Shown piece by piece: positions 54,755 through 63,759 of a DNA stretch of 64,000 nucleotides. The stretch's first letter is position 1, and each line of letters begins with the position of its first letter. Position numbers and translations under genes: made by a program. Origin of the DNA: Dysgonomonas hofstadii (GTDB lineage Bacteria > Bacteroidota > Bacteroidia > Bacteroidales > Dysgonomonadaceae); the NCBI RefSeq assembly GCF_014196915.1, contig NZ_JACIEP010000013.1, positions 62,001 through 126,000 on the forward strand, in the 5' to 3' direction. Below the pieces are notes generated by a model. The model was not told the origin of the DNA and made no database searches. It saw only the letters and a list, made by a program, of their open reading frames with translations.

Positions 54755-54784
54755 TTTGTTACTTTCATTTTTTTTATAACTTTG
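54755..54784 (+). promoter_or_regulatory. trp operon promoter
   Basis: -33 box TTTG (54755-54758), 18 nt spacer, -7 box TAACTTTG (54777-54784). Both match the Bacteroidota consensus. Transcription would begin near 54790, about 15 nt before the leader peptide. Confidence 0.75.
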
Positions 54785-54805
54785 CAAAAACAAAAAGAAA
54801 GAAGA

Positions 54806-54865
54806 ATGAATTTTCTATTAACAAATACATTTTGGTGGTGGCACTCTCAACTCAAAAAGTCGTGA
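54806..54865 (+). CDS. trpL: trp leader peptide
   Basis: A 19-codon frame, MNFLLTNTFWWWHSQLKKS, preceded by an A/G-rich AAAGAAAGAAGA. Codons 10-12 (54833-54841) are TGG TGG TGG, which is hard to explain by chance in a short leader right behind a promoter. The stop codon (54863-54865) lies inside GTCGTGAG, which can pair with the loop and 3' arm of the terminator. This is the layout of a ribosome-stalling attenuation leader. When charged tRNA-Trp is scarce the ribosome should stall at the Trp codons and let the operon be read. Confidence 0.85.
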   Translation: MNFLLTNTFWWWHSQLKKS

Positions 54866-54940
54866 GCCAAACTGGTATGTATTAATGAATGGAAAGTATG
54901 AAATACAAAGCCTGTCGTAACTCACGACAGGCTTTTTTTT
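54859..54940 (+). promoter_or_regulatory. trp attenuator with alternative pairing
   Basis: Two exclusive folds are visible. The terminator is AAAGCCTGTCGT (54907-54918) with ACGACAGGCTTT (54924-54935), 12 perfect pairs, loop AACTC, then a run of eight T. The antiterminator has an inner stem TGTATT (54878-54883) with AATACA (54902-54907), possibly extended by GG/CC (54874-54875 with 54911-54912), and an outer stem GTCGTGAG (54859-54866) with CTCACGAC (54921-54928). A ribosome at the leader stop would cover the left side of the antiterminator and favour termination; one stalled at the Trp codons would not. Fold energies were not computed. Confidence 0.8.
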
Positions 54941-54966
54941 ATAAGAAAAAAATAACACCAGATAAA

Positions 54967-56148
54967 ATGGAAAAATTTGCAGTAGACATCAACGGTTTTT
55001 ATGGAGAATTCGGAGGGGCATATATCCCTGAAATTCTTTACGATAATGTGGAAACATTAAAGAATTCATATCTGAAAGTGATCAACGATCCCTCTTTTCA
55101 GAAAGAATATAATGACCTGCTAAGGGATTATGTAGGCCGTCCTTCCCCACTCTATCTGGCTAACAGATTATCGGAAAAATATGGTTGTAAGATTTATCTG
55201 AAGCGCGAAGACCTCAACCATACGGGTTCGCATAAGATAAACAATGCCATCGGGCAAATCCTGCTTGCACGCCGTATGGGAAAAACCCGTATCATTGCCG
55301 AAACTGGAGCCGGACAGCACGGCGTAGCAACGGCGACCGTATGCGCACTGATGAATATGCAATGCATTGTGTATATGGGGAAAACCGATGTGGAACGCCA
55401 AAAACTGAATGTGCAGAAAATGGAGATGCTGGGCGCAACGGTCGTTCCTGTAACCAGCGGCAATATGACACTGAAAGATGCCACAAACGAAGCAATCCGC
55501 GACTGGTGCTGCAATCCATCCGATACGTATTATGTGATCGGTTCCACAGTAGGGCCTCATCCCTACCCCGATATGGTTGCCCGCTTGCAATCGGTTATCA
55601 GTGACGAAATACGCAGGCAACTGAAAGAAAAGGAAGGCCGCGAAACCCCCGATTATGTAATGGCCTGCGTTGGTGGTGGCAGCAATGCAGCCGGTACAAT
55701 TTTCCATTTCATCGATGAACCCGGTGTAAAGATCGTATTGGCCGAAGCAGCAGGAAAAGGAATAGACACCGGAGAATCGGCTGCAACTATCCACCTCGGA
55801 AAACTGGGTATTATCCACGGCAGCAAAACACTTATCATGCAATCGGAAGACGGGCAGATCGAAGAGCCTTATTCCATTTCGGCAGGACTCGACTACCCGG
55901 GAATCGGCCCTATGCATGCCTGTATGGCAAAAGCAGGCAGATCGAGAGTGCTGGCTGTAACTGACGACGAAGCGATGCAGGCAGCTTTCGAACTGACAAA
56001 GCTGGAAGGAATTATCCCCGCCATCGAATCGGCCCATGCATTAGGTGCACTGGATAAAATGAGTTTCAAGGCTGACGATGTTGTCGTGCTTTGTCTATCC
56101 GGTAGAGGAGATAAGGATATGGAAACGTATATAAATTATGCCCCCTAA
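54967..56148 (+). CDS. trpB: Tryptophan synthase beta subunit
   Basis: 393 residues. Condenses indole with serine in a PLP-dependent reaction, normally in an alpha2beta2 complex with TrpA. PLP lysine in [13 protein letters not shown], catalytic Glu in [14 protein letters not shown], the phosphate-binding [12 protein letters not shown] loop and the C-terminal [11 protein letters not shown] are all present. The start is set at [19 protein letters not shown]. The frame is open upstream to 54889, but those 26 codons read the attenuator terminator and are surely untranslated. The stop codon TAA (56146) lies inside a GC-rich palindrome (half A). First structural gene of the trp operon, which is an unusual place for trpB. 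Confidence 0.95.
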
Positions 56149-56262
56149 ATCCCCCAAGGGGGACTTGCAATATAGATAACAATTTAGTATTTGTAATTAA
56201 TGTACACTATTATATGATGACAATAGCAAAAGACCTCCCTTACGAGGAGGATGGGAGGGGTC
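56140..56262. repeat. Composite palindrome at trpB/trpE junction
   Basis: Half A, GCCCCCTAAATCCCCCAAGG (56140-56159, ending GGGGGAC at 56164), contains the trpB stop codon. Half B, GACCTCCCTTACGAGGAGGA (56232-56251, continuing to GGGAGGGGTC at 56262), lies inside the trpE reading frame. The ends are inverted relative to each other. The trpE start codon is in the 67 bp between the halves. Confidence 0.75.
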
Positions 56263-57665
56263 AATACTCCATAATCGTCAAAACCAAAAACCTCCTTGCC
56301 GACCTGCAAACGCCTGTAGGCATCTACCTGAAAGTTCGGGACATTTATCCTGAGTCGGCATTACTCGAAAGTTCGGACTATCACGGAGGAGAAAATAGTT
56401 ATTCATTTATCGGCATCAGCCCGATCGCACGGTTCAGGGTTGATAATGATGAAATAACATATACCTACCCTGACAATGCGACCAAAAAAGAAAAACTGTC
56501 CGACCAGGAAAAACTGACGGATAAATTCAACGCCTTTATCCATCAATTTGATGTACAGGGCGAAAACAAAACAAATATCAACGGCTTTTTCGGTTACACT
56601 TCTTACGATGCCATCCGCTACTTTGAAGCGGTAGATCCTAGAAACAATAAATTAAACAACTCCGATATTCCCGAATTCTATTATATACTTTATCGCTTCA
56701 TTCTGGTTATAAACCACTTGAAAAATGAACTCACTATTGTAGAAAATATCGTCGAAGGCTCCGTAGAAAAGACATCGGAACTCGAAGCCATCCTCACCAA
56801 TAATAATATTGCTTCTTACAATTTCGAGACCATCGGCAACGAGCAGACCATGATCACGGACGAAGAGCATCAGGAAATGATAAAAAAAGGAATCGCCCAT
56901 TGCAAGCGTGGTGATGTTTTCCAGATCGTTCTGTCGAGATGCTTTACCCAGAAATTCGCTGGCGACGATTTTAAAGTATATCGCTCGCTCCGCTCCATCA
57001 ACCCCTCACCTTACTTGTTTTATTTCGATTTCGGTTCGTTCCGCATCTTCGGCTCATCACCCGAAACCCATTGCAAAATCACAAAAGGCAAAGCATATAT
57101 CGATCCCATCGCAGGAACTTACTTCCGTACCGGCGACGATGAAAAAGACCGCATATTATCTGAAGACTTACTGAAAGACGAGAAAGAGAACGCCGAGCAT
57201 GTGATGCTTGTAGATCTTGCCCGTAACGACCTTAGCCGCAACTGCCACGATGTAAAAGTCGAATTTTATAAGAACGTACAATTCTATTCGCATGTGATCC
57301 ATCTGGTTTCGCGCGTCAGTGGTATTGTAAACCAAGATAGAAATAATATTTCGGTATTTGCAGACACTTTTCCTGCCGGAACGCTTTCAGGGGCACCGAA
57401 AGTAAGGGCTATGCAACTGATCCGCGACATTGAAAAGCAGATGCGGGGCGTATATGGCGGCTGCATCGGGTATATCGGGTTCAACGGCGACCTGAACCAG
57501 GCCATCACGATACGTACTTTCCTCAGCCGCAACAACATCCTTTACTATCAGGCAGGAGGTGGAATCGTTTCCAAATCGAACCCTGAGACTGAAGTGATGG
57601 AAGTAAAGAATAAACTGGGAGCATTAACAAAGGCTGTAAAAGCAGCGGTTGAACTAAAAAATTAG
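56214..57665 (+). CDS. trpE: Anthranilate synthase component I
   Basis: 483 residues. Converts chorismate to anthranilate with ammonia supplied by TrpG. Feedback (Trp-binding) motif LLESS near residue 51, then chorismate-binding motifs IVLSRCFTQKF, PSPYLFYFDFG, PIAGTYFRTG, HVMLVDLARNDLSR and FPAGTLSGAPKVRAMQLI, ending GGCIGYIGFNGDLNQAI. The first 20 residues (MMTIAKDLPYEEDGRGQYSI) precede the usual N-terminus. Residues LPYEEDGRG are read from half B of a palindromic repeat, and no later ATG is available before the core, so the repeat is translated. Stop TAG at 57663 touches the next copy of the element. Confidence 0.95.
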   Translation: MMTIAKDLPYEEDGRGQYSIIVKTKNLLADLQTPVGIYLKVRDIYPESALLESSDYHGGENSYSFIGISPIARFRVDNDEITYTYPDNATKKEKLSDQEKLTDKFNAFIHQFDVQGENKTNINGFFGYTSYDAIRYFEAVDPRNNKLNNSDIPEFYYILYRFILVINHLKNELTIVENIVEGSVEKTSELEAILTNNNIASYNFETIGNEQTMITDEEHQEMIKKGIAHCKRGDVFQIVLSRCFTQKFAGDDFKVYRSLRSINPSPYLFYFDFGSFRIFGSSPETHCKITKGKAYIDPIAGTYFRTGDDEKDRILSEDLLKDEKENAEHVMLVDLARNDLSRNCHDVKVEFYKNVQFYSHVIHLVSRVSGIVNQDRNNISVFADTFPAGTLSGAPKVRAMQLIRDIEKQMRGVYGGCIGYIGFNGDLNQAITIRTFLSRNNILYYQAGGGIVSKSNPETEVMEVKNKLGALTKAVKAAVELKN

Positions 57666-57775
57666 GCCCCCTAATCCCCCGGAGGGGGACTTAAACGATA
57701 AGAAAATGACTAAAATGACAAATACAACAGATCAATCAGGCCATTCCCTCCCCTCTGGGGAGGACAGGAGGGGCC
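57665..57775. repeat. Composite palindrome at trpE/trpG junction
   Basis: Half A, GGCCCCCTAATCCCCCGGAG (57665-57684, to GGGGGAC at 57690). Half B, GGCC then CCCTCCCCTCTGGGGAGG (57739-57763), ending AGGAGGGGCC at 57775, lies inside trpG. The trpG start codon is between the halves, as in the trpB/trpE copy. Confidence 0.78.
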
Positions 57776-58338
57776 GTATCCTAATTTTCGACAACTACGA
57801 TTCATTCACCTATAACCTTGTTCATCTGGTAAAGGAACTGGGATACACGGATGTGGATGTTTACAGAAATGATAAAATTTCTCTTGAGGAGGCAGAAAAA
57901 TACGATAAAATCATACTGTCCCCGGGCCCGGGCATTCCTTCCGAAGCCGGACTGCTTTTACCCCTTATAAAAGAATATGCCGGAAAGAAACCTATTTTAG
58001 GCGTGTGTTTAGGACATCAGGCGATCGGAGAAGCTTTCGGGGCTACACTTACCAATCTGGAAGATGTATATCACGGGGTTGCCACTAAAATAAAACGGAT
58101 AAAGCCCGATTATATATTTGAAGGACTGGACGATGAACTGGAAGTTGGCCGATATCATTCATGGATAGTCGAGAATAAGAATATACCTGACTGTTTCGAA
58201 ATTACGGCAGTCGATGAGAAAGGGCAGATTATGGCTCTTCGTCATAAAGAATATGACATTCACGGTGTGCAATTCCATCCCGAATCAGTACTGACTCCTG
58301 AGGGAGAAATAATAGTAAAGAATTTTCTAAGTAAATAA
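57706..58338 (+). CDS. trpG: Anthranilate synthase component II (glutamine amidotransferase)
   Basis: 210 residues, class I amidotransferase that releases ammonia from glutamine for TrpE. Catalytic triad: Cys in GVCLGHQAIGEAFG, and His plus Glu in HGVQFHPESVLTPEG. The oxyanion region is LSPGPGIPSEAG. The normal start of the family, RILIFDNYDSFTYNLVHLV, is preceded here by about 24 extra residues. Among these LPSGEDRRG is read from half B of a GC-rich palindrome, in the same frame as LPYEEDGRG in TrpE. Met1 (57706) or Met4 (57715) must be used because no later ATG precedes the core. Not fused to TrpD. Confidence 0.94.
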   Translation: MTKMTNTTDQSGHSLPSGEDRRGRILIFDNYDSFTYNLVHLVKELGYTDVDVYRNDKISLEEAEKYDKIILSPGPGIPSEAGLLLPLIKEYAGKKPILGVCLGHQAIGEAFGATLTNLEDVYHGVATKIKRIKPDYIFEGLDDELEVGRYHSWIVENKNIPDCFEITAVDEKGQIMALRHKEYDIHGVQFHPESVLTPEGEIIVKNFLSK

Positions 58339-58345
58339 CCATAAT

Positions 58346-58411
58346 AGTTGACTAGTAAACGAGATACAAGATACGACCCAAAAGACTCGCCTACTCGTTT
58401 ACATGTCAACT
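58346..58411. repeat. Inverted repeat between trpG and trpB2
   Basis: AGTTGACTAGTAAACGAG (58346-58363) pairs with CTCGTTTACATGTCAACT (58394-58411) at 16 of 18 positions. No T tract follows, so it is not a typical terminator. Similar in style to 39066-39131. Confidence 0.65.
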
Positions 58412-58427
58412 TGTTAACTAAAAAATC

Positions 58428-59786
58428 ATGAACAAAAAAATCTTATTAAGCGAAAACGACATTCCAAGAAGCTGGTACAACATTATTGCGGATATGAAAA
58501 ACAAACCGCTGCTTCCTCTCCATCCGGGAACAAAAAAACCTTTGGAAGTAAGTGATCTGGAACCAATATTTGCAACAGAGCTTGCCAAACAGGAATTGAA
58601 CTATACCGACCGGTGGATAGAAATCCCCGAACCGATACGCGAACTGTATAAGAATTATCGTCCTACGCCGTTGGTACGCGCCTATGGCCTAGAAAAAGCA
58701 CTGGATACTCCGGCACATATCTATTTTAAGAATGAAAGCGTCAGCCCGGTAGGTTCGCACAAACTGAATTCGGCAATAGCACAGGCATATTACTGTAAGG
58801 AACAGGGAGTAACAAATATCACAACCGAAACAGGCGCAGGGCAATGGGGTGCTGCCTTATCGTATGCTGCAAACCATTTCGGACTGGATCTGGCGGTTTA
58901 TATGGTAAAAATCAGCTATCACCAGAAACCTTACCGCCGCTCGATCATGCAAACATACGGTGCAGAGGTTATAGCATCGCCTAGTATGAGCACCAAAGCC
59001 GGACGCAAGATCATTACAGATAACCCGACTTATCAGGGGAGCCTTGGTACAGCTATCTCCGAAGCTATCGAACTGGCTCTAAACACACCGAATTGTAAAT
59101 ATACATTAGGCAGCGTATTAAACCACGTAGCCCTTCATCAGACAATTATCGGACTGGAAGCAGAGAAACAAATGGAAATAGCAGGCGAATATCCCGATGT
59201 AGTGATCGGCTGCTTTGGCGGTGGATCTAACTTCTCAGGTATTACGTTCCCATTCCTGCGTCACAAACTGACCGAAGGTAAAGATGTCCGCCTTGTTGCG
59301 GCAGAACCGGCATCGTGCCCGAAATTAACCCGTGGTAAATTCGAGTACGACTTCGGTGATGAAGCCGGATATACTCCGCTTTTACCGATGTACACATTAG
59401 GACACAATTTTGCGCCGGCCAACATTCATGCGGGAGGACTCCGTTATCATGGAGCAGGAACAATTGTCAGCCAATTGAAAAAAGACGGATATATAGAAGC
59501 TGTGGACGTGAAGCAGCTCGATACATTCGAAGCTGGTATACTATTTGCAAAAGCAGAAGGTATAATTCCGGCACCCGAATCTTCTCATGCAATAAGCGCG
59601 GCTATTCAGGAAGCATTGAAGGCGAAAGAAGAAGGAAAACAAAGAACAATCCTGTTCAATCTATCTGGCCACGGACTGATCGACATGGCTGCTTATGACC
59701 GTTATTTCGATGGTGAACTGACTAATCATGAGTTGTCCGATGAAGAGATTGCGAAGACAACAGATGCTTTGGAGAAATTAGTGTGA
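58428..59786 (+). CDS. trpB2: TrpB2-type tryptophan synthase beta-like protein
   Basis: 452 residues, longer than TrpB1. It has the TrpB2 hallmarks: the N-terminal extension with DIPRSWYNIIADMKN and LEPIFATELAKQELN, RPTPLVRAYGLEKAL, the PLP lysine in SPVGSHKLNSAIAQAYY, ETGAGQWGAALSYAA, VKISYHQKPYRRSIMQTYGA and FGGGSNFSGITFPFL. TrpB2 enzymes bind serine and indole but usually do not associate with TrpA in the standard way, and are suggested to salvage indole. Having it inside the trp operon beside a normal trpB means two beta subunits are made together. Confidence 0.92.
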   Translation: MNKKILLSENDIPRSWYNIIADMKNKPLLPLHPGTKKPLEVSDLEPIFATELAKQELNYTDRWIEIPEPIRELYKNYRPTPLVRAYGLEKALDTPAHIYFKNESVSPVGSHKLNSAIAQAYYCKEQGVTNITTETGAGQWGAALSYAANHFGLDLAVYMVKISYHQKPYRRSIMQTYGAEVIASPSMSTKAGRKIITDNPTYQGSLGTAISEAIELALNTPNCKYTLGSVLNHVALHQTIIGLEAEKQMEIAGEYPDVVIGCFGGGSNFSGITFPFLRHKLTEGKDVRLVAAEPASCPKLTRGKFEYDFGDEAGYTPLLPMYTLGHNFAPANIHAGGLRYHGAGTIVSQLKKDGYIEAVDVKQLDTFEAGILFAKAEGIIPAPESSHAISAAIQEALKAKEEGKQRTILFNLSGHGLIDMAAYDRYFDGELTNHELSDEEIAKTTDALEKLV

Positions 59787-59792
59787 GAATAA

Positions 59793-59851
59793 TTGTCATT
59801 CTGAGAGAAACGAAGAATCTAAGAGAGATGCTTCGTTCCTCAGCATGACAA
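59793..59851. repeat. TCATTCTGA palindrome between trpB2 and trpD
   Basis: TTGTCATTCTGAGAGAAACG (59793-59812) opens an imperfect inverted repeat closed by CTTCGTTCCTCAGCATGACAA (59831-59851). Relative of the inner palindrome at about 36993-37061. Confidence 0.75.
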
Positions 59852-59864
59852 AGAATAAAAAAAC

Positions 59865-60863
59865 ATGAAACAGATACTCAACAGACTCTTTGAACACCAA
59901 TACCTCAACCGTTGTGAGGCAAAGGAAATACTGACCAATATGGCGGACGGGAAATATAACGATTCGGAAATAGCCGCGTTTATCAGCGTATTCCTGATGC
60001 GTAGTATCAGCGTGGACGAGTTCCTCGGATTCTCCGATGCCTTATTGGATCTGCGGGCGAATGTAGATGCGCTGGCAATATACAATCCGATCGATATTGT
60101 AGGTACGGGAGGCGATAATAAGAATACATTCAACATATCCACCCTCGCCTGCTTTGTGGTTGCAGCATCCGGATATAAAGTCGCTAAACACGGAAACTAC
60201 GGAGCGACATCGGTGAGTGGGGCTTCCAATGTGATGGAACAACACGGGGTGAAATTCACTTCAGACGTAAGCAAACTGGAAGAATCGCTCGATAAGGTCA
60301 ATATTGCCTATATGCATGCTCCGTTATTCAATAATGCTTTAAAGGTTGTCGCTCCCGTCCGTAAGGCACTGGGGGTACGCACATTCTTTAATATGCTGGG
60401 ACCTGTGGTCAATCCCATCAGGCCTAAACGCACTGTATTAGGTGTTTTTAACCTGAAAATGGCGCGTCTGTATTTTTATATGTATCAGCAGACAGATGTG
60501 GATTATTCAATCGTTCACAGTCTCGATGGTTATGATGAAATTTCGCTGACCGGAGATTTCAAAATAATTAATAAATTTGAAGAGAATATCTTTACCCCTG
60601 AACAGATTGGTTTTGAAAGGTGCAACGAAACCGACTTATACGGGGGTGAAACACCAGAAGATGCAGCAAAAATATTTGACAACGTGGTAAACAACACAGC
60701 GACGGCAGCACAGAAGAATGCGGTAATAGCCAATGCGGCGGTAGCTATACAGACTATCAATCCTCAACAATCTTTTGCGGATGCTATGGCAGAAGCGAGA
60801 GAATCGATAGATAGCGGCCGATTGAAAGAAACATTCAGCAAATTTTTGGAATTAAATACCTGA
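59865..60863 (+). CDS. trpD: Anthranilate phosphoribosyltransferase
   Basis: 332 residues. Joins anthranilate with PRPP. Signatures: the N-terminal helical domain (LTNMADGKYNDSEIAAFISV), the PRPP loop IDIVGTGGDNKNTFNIST, KHGNYGATSVSGASNVMEQHG with the anthranilate-binding region, and the later RKALGVRTFFNMLGPVVNP. The C-terminal LYGGETPEDAAKIFDNVVNN is also typical. Length is normal. It lies behind trpB2 (78 nt, with a palindromic repeat in between) and is followed 5 nt later by the chorismate-mutase-like gene. Confidence 0.95.
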   Translation: MKQILNRLFEHQYLNRCEAKEILTNMADGKYNDSEIAAFISVFLMRSISVDEFLGFSDALLDLRANVDALAIYNPIDIVGTGGDNKNTFNISTLACFVVAASGYKVAKHGNYGATSVSGASNVMEQHGVKFTSDVSKLEESLDKVNIAYMHAPLFNNALKVVAPVRKALGVRTFFNMLGPVVNPIRPKRTVLGVFNLKMARLYFYMYQQTDVDYSIVHSLDGYDEISLTGDFKIINKFEENIFTPEQIGFERCNETDLYGGETPEDAAKIFDNVVNNTATAAQKNAVIANAAVAIQTINPQQSFADAMAEARESIDSGRLKETFSKFLELNT

Positions 60864-60868
60864 AGATT

Positions 60869-61195
60869 ATGAATGAACAACAAAATATAGCAAATTGCCA
60901 TTCTTTGGATGAAATAAAAAATCAGATTGAAGATATCGATTTCGAATTGAGCAACCTTATTATAAAACGCAGTCAATATCTTTCTCAGATTAAAAAATTT
61001 AAGGACCCGATAAAGAATATTACAGACATAAACAAAACGGATATTCTTTCCAAAATAAAGACATTGACAAACGAAAAAGATGTGAACCCTGTTATAATAG
61101 AAAAGATTTACAACTCGATTGTCAGCATCTTCCGGGAGCAACATCTAAAAGAGAATGATGCTTTGTATGAGGAACTAAAAAAGCACTATTATTAA
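60869..61195 (+). CDS. Chorismate mutase (AroQ-like) small protein
   Basis: 108 residues, all helical, resembling the AroQ-type chorismate mutase fold: SLDEIKNQIEDIDFELSNLIIKR (helix 1 with the Asp and the basic residue of the active site), then a connecting loop and PVIIEKIYNSIVSIFREQHLKEN. AroQ enzymes convert chorismate to prephenate; close relatives cleave isochorismate. Some active-site positions cannot be judged by eye, so activity is uncertain. Its place in the trp operon is odd, since it would pull chorismate away from TrpE toward Phe/Tyr. Confidence 0.7.
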   Translation: MNEQQNIANCHSLDEIKNQIEDIDFELSNLIIKRSQYLSQIKKFKDPIKNITDINKTDILSKIKTLTNEKDVNPVIIEKIYNSIVSIFREQHLKENDALYEELKKHYY

Positions 61196-61207
61196 GAGCC
61201 AGTTTAA

Positions 61208-61783
61208 ATGAAGAAAGTACTTATAATCAACGGTCACCCCGACAAAGAAAGCTTTTGTTTTGGACTGCACCAAAGCTACAAAAAAGGCTCACTGGCAAAA
61301 GGGAATGAAGTAAAAGAAATTATTCTTGCCAAAATGGATTTCAACCCGATCCTGCAATATGGCTATCGCAAGCGAACCCAACTGGAGCCCGATTTGCTGG
61401 ATGCATGGGAAAAATTGCAATGGGCTGAGCATATTGTCTGGATATACCCCACATGGTGGGCTTCGCCTCCCGCTTTACTTAAAGGTTTCATCGAACGTAT
61501 CTTCCTGCCGGGATTTACATTCGAGTATCAGGATAAGTCGCCTTTTCCCAAAAAGCTTTTCATGGGAAAGACTTCCGAAATAATAAGCACAATGGATGCT
61601 CCCGTCTTTTATTATAAATGGATAGTAAAAGATATAGGCGGAAAAATGATCCGGAAAAATATAGGCGCATTCTGTGGGATAAAAAACATCCGTACCACCT
61701 ATCTGGCCGTTATAAAAACATCGACACCGGAACAACGGAAAAAGTGGTTAAATAAGATAGAACTTATTGCACAAAAACAATGA
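61208..61783 (+). CDS. NAD(P)H oxidoreductase, NQO1/KefF-like flavodoxin fold
   Basis: 191 residues of the flavodoxin-like NAD(P)H dehydrogenase (quinone) family. N-terminal FMN/FAD phosphate loop VLIINGHPDKESFCFGLH, then WAEHIVWIYPTWWASPPALLKGFIERIFLPGFTFEY, the family's central signature, and a lid region. Such proteins reduce quinones with NAD(P)H as dimers; some (KefF) regulate transporters. No known step in Trp synthesis needs it. Its stop overlaps the MFS gene (ATGA), so the two are translationally coupled inside the trp operon. Confidence 0.87.
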   Translation: MKKVLIINGHPDKESFCFGLHQSYKKGSLAKGNEVKEIILAKMDFNPILQYGYRKRTQLEPDLLDAWEKLQWAEHIVWIYPTWWASPPALLKGFIERIFLPGFTFEYQDKSPFPKKLFMGKTSEIISTMDAPVFYYKWIVKDIGGKMIRKNIGAFCGIKNIRTTYLAVIKTSTPEQRKKWLNKIELIAQKQ

Positions 61784-62961
61784 ACGAAACAAATTTAAAA
61801 ACAGTATCGAACAGCCGTATCAGGCTGGCTGTCTTCTGTTTGTATTTTTGCTCGGGTATCTGCTTCTCAAGCTGGGCAAGCCGTATTCCGGATATTAAGA
61901 CATCACTGGGACTGGGAGATGCCGCATGGGGTACAATCTTATTAATGATACCCATCGGACAGATTTGCGGCATGACCATATCGGGACTTTTGGTATCGAA
62001 AGTAGGCAGTAAACGTATATTCCCGATAGCCCTGACAGGTTATGCAGGAGCATTACTGCTGGTCGGAATCTCCGCCAGTGAGTACGCCCTGATCATAAGC
62101 CTGATCATATTCGGATTCTTCGGTAATTTTACGAATATATCGATCAACACGCAATCGGTAACCGTAGAAAGGATGTACAACAGACCGATAATGGCTTCTT
62201 TCCATGGAGGCTGGAGCCTTGCCGGACTTACCGGAGCTGCGATAGGATTGCTTATGTCATCGCTGCAACTGGCGCCCTTCTATCATTTTTGCATTATAGG
62301 TATACTTGTTTTCATCACATTATTAATAAACAGGCCTTTTTTACAGCCCGACCTGAAAAAGGAAAAAGACCCGGAGGAAACAGCTTCTAAAAAGAAAAGT
62401 AAACCGGAAACATTTTTGTTTCTACTGGGGATCGTAGGATTTTGCGGAATGGCTGCCGAAGGAGCAATGTCCGACTGGAGCGGGTTATACCTGATAGATG
62501 TTGTGGGAACACCGAGCAATATAGCACCCATTGGCCTTGCCGCTTACATGGTGACAATGGCTTCGGGCAGGTTCCTGATCGATAAAGCGACCCAGAAGTG
62601 GGGACGCAAACGGGTGCTTCAGGCGGGAGGAACACTTATTACCATAGGCTTGTTCTCGGCTGTGGCCCTGCCTCATTTCATCACCACCATTATCGCATTC
62701 ATGATCATTGGGTTTGGTACGGCAGGCATAGTGCCCAGCATATACAGCGTAGCCGGGCAGAGAACCAAAATATCTACAAGTATAGCCCTGACGATTGTAT
62801 CGAGTGTCAGTTTCCTGGGCTTCCTGATGGGGCCTCCGCTCATAGGCTATATATCCAGTGTCACCAATTTAAGATATTCTTATGCGCTGATAGGCTTATT
62901 CGGCATCTGCATTGTTGTACTGGCATCACTGATAAAAATTCTTAAAGTAGACAAACGGTAA
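61780..62961 (+). CDS. MFS transporter, YbjJ-like
   Basis: 393 residues with about twelve hydrophobic helices in two halves joined by a charged loop (about residues 195-207). The N-terminal SSWASRIPDIKTSLGLGDAAWG and the SKVGSKRIFP loop between helices 2 and 3 match the YbjJ/FucP-like branch of the major facilitator superfamily. The corresponding loop in the second half is KATQKWGRKRVLQAGG. The substrate is unknown; inside a trp operon, export or uptake of an aromatic compound is an attractive but unproven idea. Coupled to the preceding oxidoreductase and 6 nt before trpC. Confidence 0.85.
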   Translation: MNETNLKTVSNSRIRLAVFCLYFCSGICFSSWASRIPDIKTSLGLGDAAWGTILLMIPIGQICGMTISGLLVSKVGSKRIFPIALTGYAGALLLVGISASEYALIISLIIFGFFGNFTNISINTQSVTVERMYNRPIMASFHGGWSLAGLTGAAIGLLMSSLQLAPFYHFCIIGILVFITLLINRPFLQPDLKKEKDPEETASKKKSKPETFLFLLGIVGFCGMAAEGAMSDWSGLYLIDVVGTPSNIAPIGLAAYMVTMASGRFLIDKATQKWGRKRVLQAGGTLITIGLFSAVALPHFITTIIAFMIIGFGTAGIVPSIYSVAGQRTKISTSIALTIVSSVSFLGFLMGPPLIGYISSVTNLRYSYALIGLFGICIVVLASLIKILKVDKR

Positions 62962-62967
62962 ATAGAT

Positions 62968-63759
62968 ATGGCAAACATATTAGATAAAATAATAGCAAAT
63001 AAAAAGATCGAGGTCGAAAGACAGAAAAAGCAATACAGCATTAAAGACATGATGCATTTTATTGCAGACTCCGTAGAAAAACCGGAATCATTTAAAGAGG
63101 CTTTGGTAAATTCCAAAACAGGTATTATCGCGGAATTTAAACGCCGCTCGCCTTCACGCGACTGGATTTTTAAGGATGCCACGGTAGAAGATGTTATTCC
63201 TTTATATTCACAAAACGGAGCGAGTGCGATTTCTGTCCTGACCGATATGGACTTTTTTGGCGGTAATCTGGCCGATCTGGAAAAAGCCAGAAGCCTTACA
63301 AACACTCCCTTGTTGCGAAAAGATTTTGTAATAGATGAATACCAGCTTTATCAGGCGGCGTGGAAAGGGGCAAGCGCTATATTATTGATCGCCTCTGCCT
63401 TAACAACAGAAGAGACTAAGAAACTAGCGACAAAAGCAAAAGAGCTGGGATTGGATGTCTTGTTAGAGATACATAACGAAGAGGAACTGGCCCAAATCAA
63501 TGACAAAGTTGATGTAGTAGGAGTGAATAACCGTAATCTCGGAACATTTGTAACCGATATACAGATATCGTTCGATCTGGCAAATAAAATTCCTGACGAG
63601 TTTGTGAAAATATCGGAAAGCGGCATATCGCAACCCCAGACTGTTATCGACCTGCAAGCAGTTGGCTATAAAGGCTTCCTTATGGGCGAAAACTTTATGA
63701 AGACAAGCAATCCGGGAAAAGCATTGGAAGAATTTATAAAACAACTAAGCCCCTCCTAA
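62968..63759 (+). CDS. trpC: Indole-3-glycerol-phosphate synthase
   Basis: 263 residues, single-domain TIM barrel (not fused to TrpF). Motifs: IIAEFKRRSPSRDWI with the catalytic Lys/Glu strand, LTDMDFFGG, PLLRKDFVIDEYQ (catalytic Lys), LLEIHNEEEL, VGVNNRNLGTF and ISESGI. It closes the indole ring from CdRP in the cytosol. The C-terminus reads LSPS and the TAA stop (63757) lies inside another GC-rich palindrome half, like the trpB stop. Confidence 0.95.
   Translation: MANILDKIIANKKIEVERQKKQYSIKDMMHFIADSVEKPESFKEALVNSKTGIIAEFKRRSPSRDWIFKDATVEDVIPLYSQNGASAISVLTDMDFFGGNLADLEKARSLTNTPLLRKDFVIDEYQLYQAAWKGASAILLIASALTTEETKKLATKAKELGLDVLLEIHNEEELAQINDKVDVVGVNNRNLGTFVTDIQISFDLANKIPDEFVKISESGISQPQTVIDLQAVGYKGFLMGENFMKTSNPGKALEEFIKQLSPS

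Follow-up and report, generated by a model that had tools for sequence, protein, structure and literature searches.

A conserved Bacteroid-trp attenuator before trpB of Dysgonomonas hofstadii, with comparative support for a proposed antiterminator on the terminator loop and 3' arm

We analyzed a window of 64,000 nucleotides from Dysgonomonas hofstadii in which a block of tryptophan genes, trpB through trpC, lies behind a promoter, a short leader gene, and an intrinsic terminator (Table 1). Gene order and strand suggest that the block would be read as one transcript. Both the 19-codon leader with three consecutive TGG codons and the 12-bp terminator, whose eight T include three stem bases, can be read directly from the DNA, as the original prediction had it. 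The leader stop codon also lies where it was said to lie, inside a stretch complementary to the terminator: GTCGTGAG (54859-54866) is the perfect complement of CTCACGAC (54921-54928). Segments 1 to 4 are numbered as in Table 1, and their pairings are written 1:2, 2:3, 2:4, and 3:4, the last being the terminator. The leader RNA has a minimum free energy (MFE) of -43.9 kcal/mol (z -5.9), and none of 200 shuffles was equally stable. Upstream, we take the TTTG to be the -33 element. The motif TAnnTTTG, given as a Bacteroidetes promoter motif in a section of PMC6414381, is present in 67 of 69 relatives, no more than 60 nt 5' of the leader ATG, and in 15 of 690 shuffles, which supports the promoter first proposed from the sequence of this leader.

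Table 1. Features of the trp leader and of the genes behind it; all positions are those of the window.
Feature	Position	Strand	Details and basis
Promoter, Bacteroidota-type	54755..54784	+	TTTG 54755-54758, 18-nt spacer, -7 box TAACTTTG 54777-54784; read from sequence
Rfam RF01692 (Bacteroid-trp) match	54783..54916	+	model positions 1-131 of 131; 52.4 bits, cut-off 49
Leader peptide gene, MNFLLTNTFWWWHSQLKKS	54806..54865	+	ATG 54806, TGA 54863-54865, 19 codons
Three consecutive Trp codons (TGG TGG TGG), proposed stall site	54833..54841	+	sequence
Segment 1, partner of 54858-54865 when ribosome-free	54845..54852	+	helix 5 of alignment
Segment 2, GUCGUGAG, putative antiterminator strand with leader stop codon UGA	54859..54866	+	comparison of leaders
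Terminator	54907-54940	+	12 bp
Segment 3, terminator 5' arm	54907..54918	+	70-leader alignment
Terminator loop	54919-54923	+	sequence
CUCACGAC, last three loop bases and start of 3' arm, complement of segment 2	54921..54928	+	alignment
Segment 4, terminator 3' arm with eight-T run	54924..54940	+	arm 54924-54935, T run 54933-54940; sequence, folding, alignment
trpB, tryptophan synthase beta, likely start ATG 54967 not 54889	54967..56148	+	TIGR00263, 583.9 bits, cut-off 392.45
trpE	56214 (start)	+	NCBIfam match below curated cut-off
trpG	57706 (start)	+	NCBIfam match
trpB2, TrpB-like second beta subunit	58428-59783	+	TIGR01415, 608.5 bits, cut-off 518.85; among trp genes
trpD	59865 (start)	+	NCBIfam match
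Chorismate-mutase-like	60869 (start)	+	NCBIfam match below curated cut-off
NAD(P)H-oxidoreductase-like	61208 (start)	+	NCBIfam match below curated cut-off
MFS transporter	61780 (start)	+	NCBIfam match below curated cut-off
trpC	62968 (start)	+	NCBIfam match; downstream gene block 56214..63759

The trpB frame does run back through the terminator, as had been noted: it is open to an ATG at 54889, 26 codons before the ATG at 54967, and the intervening stretch (54889-54966) contains the terminator. An ATG stands at the match start in 57 of 80 relatives, which fits a start at 54967, and an in-frame upstream start is also present in 38 of 80. Judged by this comparison, 54967 is a plausible start of trpB.

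The leader matches the Rfam family RF01692 over the whole model and above the gathering cut-off, and it resembles that family in standing before trpB and further trp genes, in its phylum (Bacteroidota), and in its proposed logic. No Rfam family besides RF01692 reached the gathering level within the window. The attenuator is real and conserved and belongs to a known family; its kind is not new. Bacteroid-trp is listed in a row of Table 1 in Weinberg et al. 2010 (PMC2864571), and a section of a 2019 paper (PMC6414381) places such an element before the Flavobacterium psychrophilum trp operon and compares it with that of E. coli. With the family listed in Rfam and an E. coli-type logic already printed in that section, the original prediction overstated the novelty in calling such attenuation rarely documented in the phylum. 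In the open-licence literature, represented by excerpts of PMC2864571, PMC4833913, PMC2965389, PMC6414381, and PMC4977773, we found no experiment on this leader. The RF01692 model differs from the element described here in stopping at 54916, inside the terminator 5' arm, so that it covers only part of the terminator and omits the 2:4 pairing.

Conservation was examined in two samples of loci. A search with TrpB, made without Rfam, kept the best 80 of 312 loci, and their upstream regions were scanned. A leader with adjacent Trp codons (WW) and an ATG start precedes 71 of these 80, the conserved leader ORF with a run of regulatory codons that marks an attenuator; none was found in 80 reverse complements, and two were found in 400 mononucleotide shuffles. 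A terminator is present in 70 of the 71, and the stop segment forms a duplex of -8 kcal/mol or lower with the loop and 3' arm in 66 of the TrpB-sampled loci and with the 5' arm in nine. Among RF01692 loci, WW lies inside the leader ORF in 115 of 117, and an intrinsic terminator lies between the leader and the first gene in 116 of 117 under a rule relaxed after a first pass (94 of 117 before the change); the one exception runs off its contig. Aligned upstream regions, the check proposed with the original prediction, keep the Trp codons, the terminator, and the stop-codon segment among relatives. Nine of the 80 loci yielded no automatic leader: three were read by eye, two are cut by a contig end (L133, L168), and four have no such leader despite a full upstream region (L150, L153, L179, L181). 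The alignment used below, A1, comprises 70 leaders; L120 (WRW) and L142 and L156 (GTG start) were added by eye, L130, L174, and L175, whose leader stop does not fall in the segment, were excluded from it and from the folding test, and a further row was removed as a duplicate.

Among the best 80 of 312 loci, the closest named relatives by TrpB are Dysgonomonas, at up to 93% identity, interspersed with a few records labelled Prevotella sp. RF01692 matches at E 0.01 or better were obtained in 19 of 25 genomes at genus level, 72 of 101 at family level, and 47 of 395 at phylum level, the own genome being included each time. Two of 18 good same-genus genomes are without a match. One (G007) carries a WWW leader, read by eye, that falls below the RF01692 threshold; in the other (G023; L130/L198) the leader is decayed, with the stop shifted downstream, segment 2 altered, and the terminator intact. 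Apibacter belongs to the Flavobacteriales. At two Apibacter loci (L137, L142), TrpB is 84% and 81% identical to that of the window and the leader is similar, with a GTG start at L142; a transfer of the trp operon and its attenuator involving Apibacter is possible on this comparison.

The pairings were assessed in A1, where the leaders have three Trp codons in 50 cases and two in 20. The terminator is paired in 99.2% of cells, with 11 of its 12 pairs changed on both sides, and the inner 1:2 helix (helix 5) in 96.4%, with four of six pairs so changed; the rest of the large hairpin is weak, its helices being paired in 39.5 to 66.6%. The 2:4 helix is paired in 94.4% of cells, a figure slightly favoured by the exclusion of L130, L174, and L175. 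Its covariation is 0.278, compared with 0.216 in shuffles (0 of 500 reach the native value) and at most 0.109 when the helix is slid; its counts of double-change pairs and of further pair types are unremarkable, being reached by 156 and 464 of 500 shuffles, respectively. Across RF01692 loci, 2:4 is stronger than 2:3 in 108 of 116, and the native 2:4 mean is -11.0 versus -5.4 (sd 2.4) for a shuffled segment. When leaders were scored one by one in a wide-window duplex test (stop region of 35 nt), 2:4 exceeded 95% of shuffles in only 31 of 70. These comparisons and duplex calculations support an antiterminator that would pair segment 2 with the terminator loop and 3' arm rather than with the 5' arm.

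The stop codon itself appears to be part of this pairing. UGA or UAA letters occur in segment 2 of all 70 aligned leaders, including nine in which the reading-frame stop is elsewhere, which suggests that the letters may be conserved for pairing. In 100 RF01692 loci scored (17 of 117 were skipped because the motif was not recognisable), the stop base forms a G-C pair with its loop partner in 55 and an A-T pair in 43. Tree counts weaken this covariation as strong independent support: the 70-row TrpB tree holds one change, and a 107-row tree holds four changes of the stop base and six of the loop base, with one independent pair on well-supported branches and four on all. With so few changes, the covariation is only modest evidence. 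In the one independent pair of the 70-row tree, changes of the stop base and of segment 1 do not coincide.

Folding along the growing transcript indicates when the 2:4 helix could act. When a ribosome is placed on the second Trp codon of the own leader, the MFE structure is 2:4 for transcript ends 54925 to 54931, and the terminator replaces it from 54932. With the ribosome on the first Trp codon, 2:4 appears in the MFE structure before the terminator is complete in all 67 leaders folded, compared with an early 2:4 helix in 34 of 335 controls in which the stretch from leader to terminator was shuffled. A ribosome at the leader stop leaves the terminator to form in 64 of 67. Once the transcript is full-length, terminator probability is at least 0.999 even with a stalled ribosome. 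The folding-energy comparison proposed with the original prediction thus gives 2:4 as the MFE only before the terminator is made; the helix is conserved and the earliest fold in 67 of 67, and is never the stable fold at full length. Equilibrium folding consequently fails as a model of the switch. Because the terminator always wins at full length, the antiterminator must act kinetically, by being first, and on these models it would work only if trapped in time.

From the anatomy, conservation, and pairings established above, we infer a cycle of ribosome stalling, kinetic trapping, termination, and read-through. With ample charged tRNA-Trp, the ribosome would reach the leader stop and, through its footprint on the leader RNA, cover segments 1 and 2, allowing the terminator (3:4) to form. 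When Trp is short, the ribosome would stall at the three UGG codons and cover segment 1, leaving segment 2 free. As the polymerase completes the terminator loop, segment 2 could then capture the loop and 3' arm through the eight 2:4 pairs while the terminator is still incomplete, and transcription would continue into trpB. If there is no translation, 1:2 would form and the terminator would win. We assign a probability of roughly 0.8 to this reading, a ribosome-mediated transcription attenuator of the Bacteroid-trp family with a 2:4 antiterminator.

An unlikely variant retains the attenuator and has the antiterminator sequester the terminator 5' arm as well (GGU/GCC and UGUAUU/AAUACA in addition to segment 2). 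The forced 2:4 fold of the own sequence does include 5' arm pairs, at -18.5 kcal/mol, the proportion of paired cells is slightly higher than in shuffles (55.4% versus 53.9%; 9 of 500 reach it), and in 8 of 116 RF01692 loci the stop segment pairs equally well or better with the 5' arm. However, covariation over the 70 leaders is no different from that of shuffles (0.157 versus 0.158), a slide by -1 scores as high (0.168), and 2:3 exceeds 95% of shuffles in none of the 70 Trp leaders. A longer antiterminator on both terminator arms is unsupported beyond the close kin of the own sequence. Accordingly, of the competing antiterminator on both arms that the original prediction described, the pairing with the loop and 3' arm is supported and that with the 5' arm is not. 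Its appeal to E. coli trp logic fares similarly: ribosome-mediated trp attenuation is the best reading, but with a 2:4 rather than a 2:3 antiterminator. The E. coli trp leader (RF00513) likewise has a short peptide, tandem Trp codons, a 1:2 hairpin, and an intrinsic terminator. Its antiterminator is a 2:3 pairing that uses the 5' arm, which the comparison does not support here; the element described here also differs in having the leader stop within the putative antiterminator strand and in a genome without a TrpR match. RF00513 was not among the Rfam matches up to E = 1.

Less probable still is a terminator that is constitutive or under another regulator, with the Trp codons merely reflecting conservation of the RNA sequence. 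Such a terminator would fit the dominance of the full-length terminator in every folded state, yet it is at odds with the WW codons kept in the leader ORFs of both samples (115 of 117 and 71 of 80), with the lack of any further gathering-level Rfam family in the window, and with the leaders carrying their own cognate codons before hisG and pheA-like genes of relatives (see below). It also conflicts with the regulator genes of the genome: in an assembly 99.7% complete, neither TrpR (PF01371) nor TRAP (PF02081) was matched, while positive controls were detected. A trp operon controlled by TrpR or TRAP was rejected on the same grounds.

Leaders for other amino acids occur in the same group. His leaders (HHH) precede hisG in all eight genus and family relatives (L221-L228; controls 0/8 and 0/80) and, at class level, in 18 of 29 loci, of which 17 also have a terminator (L272-L300; controls 0/29 and 0/290), one of 31 genomes with hisG having yielded no locus; the hisG of the own genome (L220) has no His leader upstream. 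A Phe-rich leader and terminator precede a pheA-like gene in all eight genus and family relatives (L245-L248, L250-L253; controls 1/8 and 3/80), and the own genome has a Phe leader peptide, MNNFSFTYFFFFYFYFKSKTGFCM, with a terminator upstream of its PDT gene (L249, G000:C4). At class level, where their spread is less certain, Phe-rich leaders stand in 7 of 19 loci (own included; four with a terminator; controls 2/19 and 1/190). In family loci, 2:3 is stronger than 2:4 in 8/8 His and 8/8 Phe cases and exceeds 95% of shuffles in 3/8 and 8/8, respectively; the class-level loci show a stronger 2:3 in 9 of 17 cases for His and 1 of 4 for Phe. A terminator stands before leuA at all nine loci (L229-L237), and a short Ile/Leu-rich peptide, MLSVHSIIISSLIILWRNLG, missed by the automatic filter, was read by eye upstream of leuA in the own genome (L237). 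An Rfam scan of 20 of the 34 His-, Phe-, and Leu-type loci gave no gathering-level match. A 2004 survey by Vitreschak et al. (FEMS Microbiol Lett 234:357) reportedly made a comparative prediction of amino-acid leader attenuators, as is done here for leader peptides, and its abstract is said to name Bacteroidetes/Chlorobi.

Together, these findings firmly place the candidate in a known family and offer its 2:4 topology as something testable. What they add to the family model would be a switch whose antiterminator contests the loop and 3' arm of the terminator and must prevail through timing. At about even odds, Bacteroidota may use leader-peptide attenuators broadly, for Trp, His, Phe, and perhaps Leu/Ile, in two designs: a classical 2:3 form, clearest for Phe in the family, and the Trp 2:4 form, which starts on the terminator loop and uses the strand holding the leader stop. 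The odds of this two-design reading are reduced by the class-level His leaders, which favour 2:3 in only 9 of 17. If it is true, the terminating ribosome would mask exactly the strand able to prevent termination. The His and Phe leader attenuators of Bacteroidota, without an Rfam match in the loci tested, merit cataloguing.
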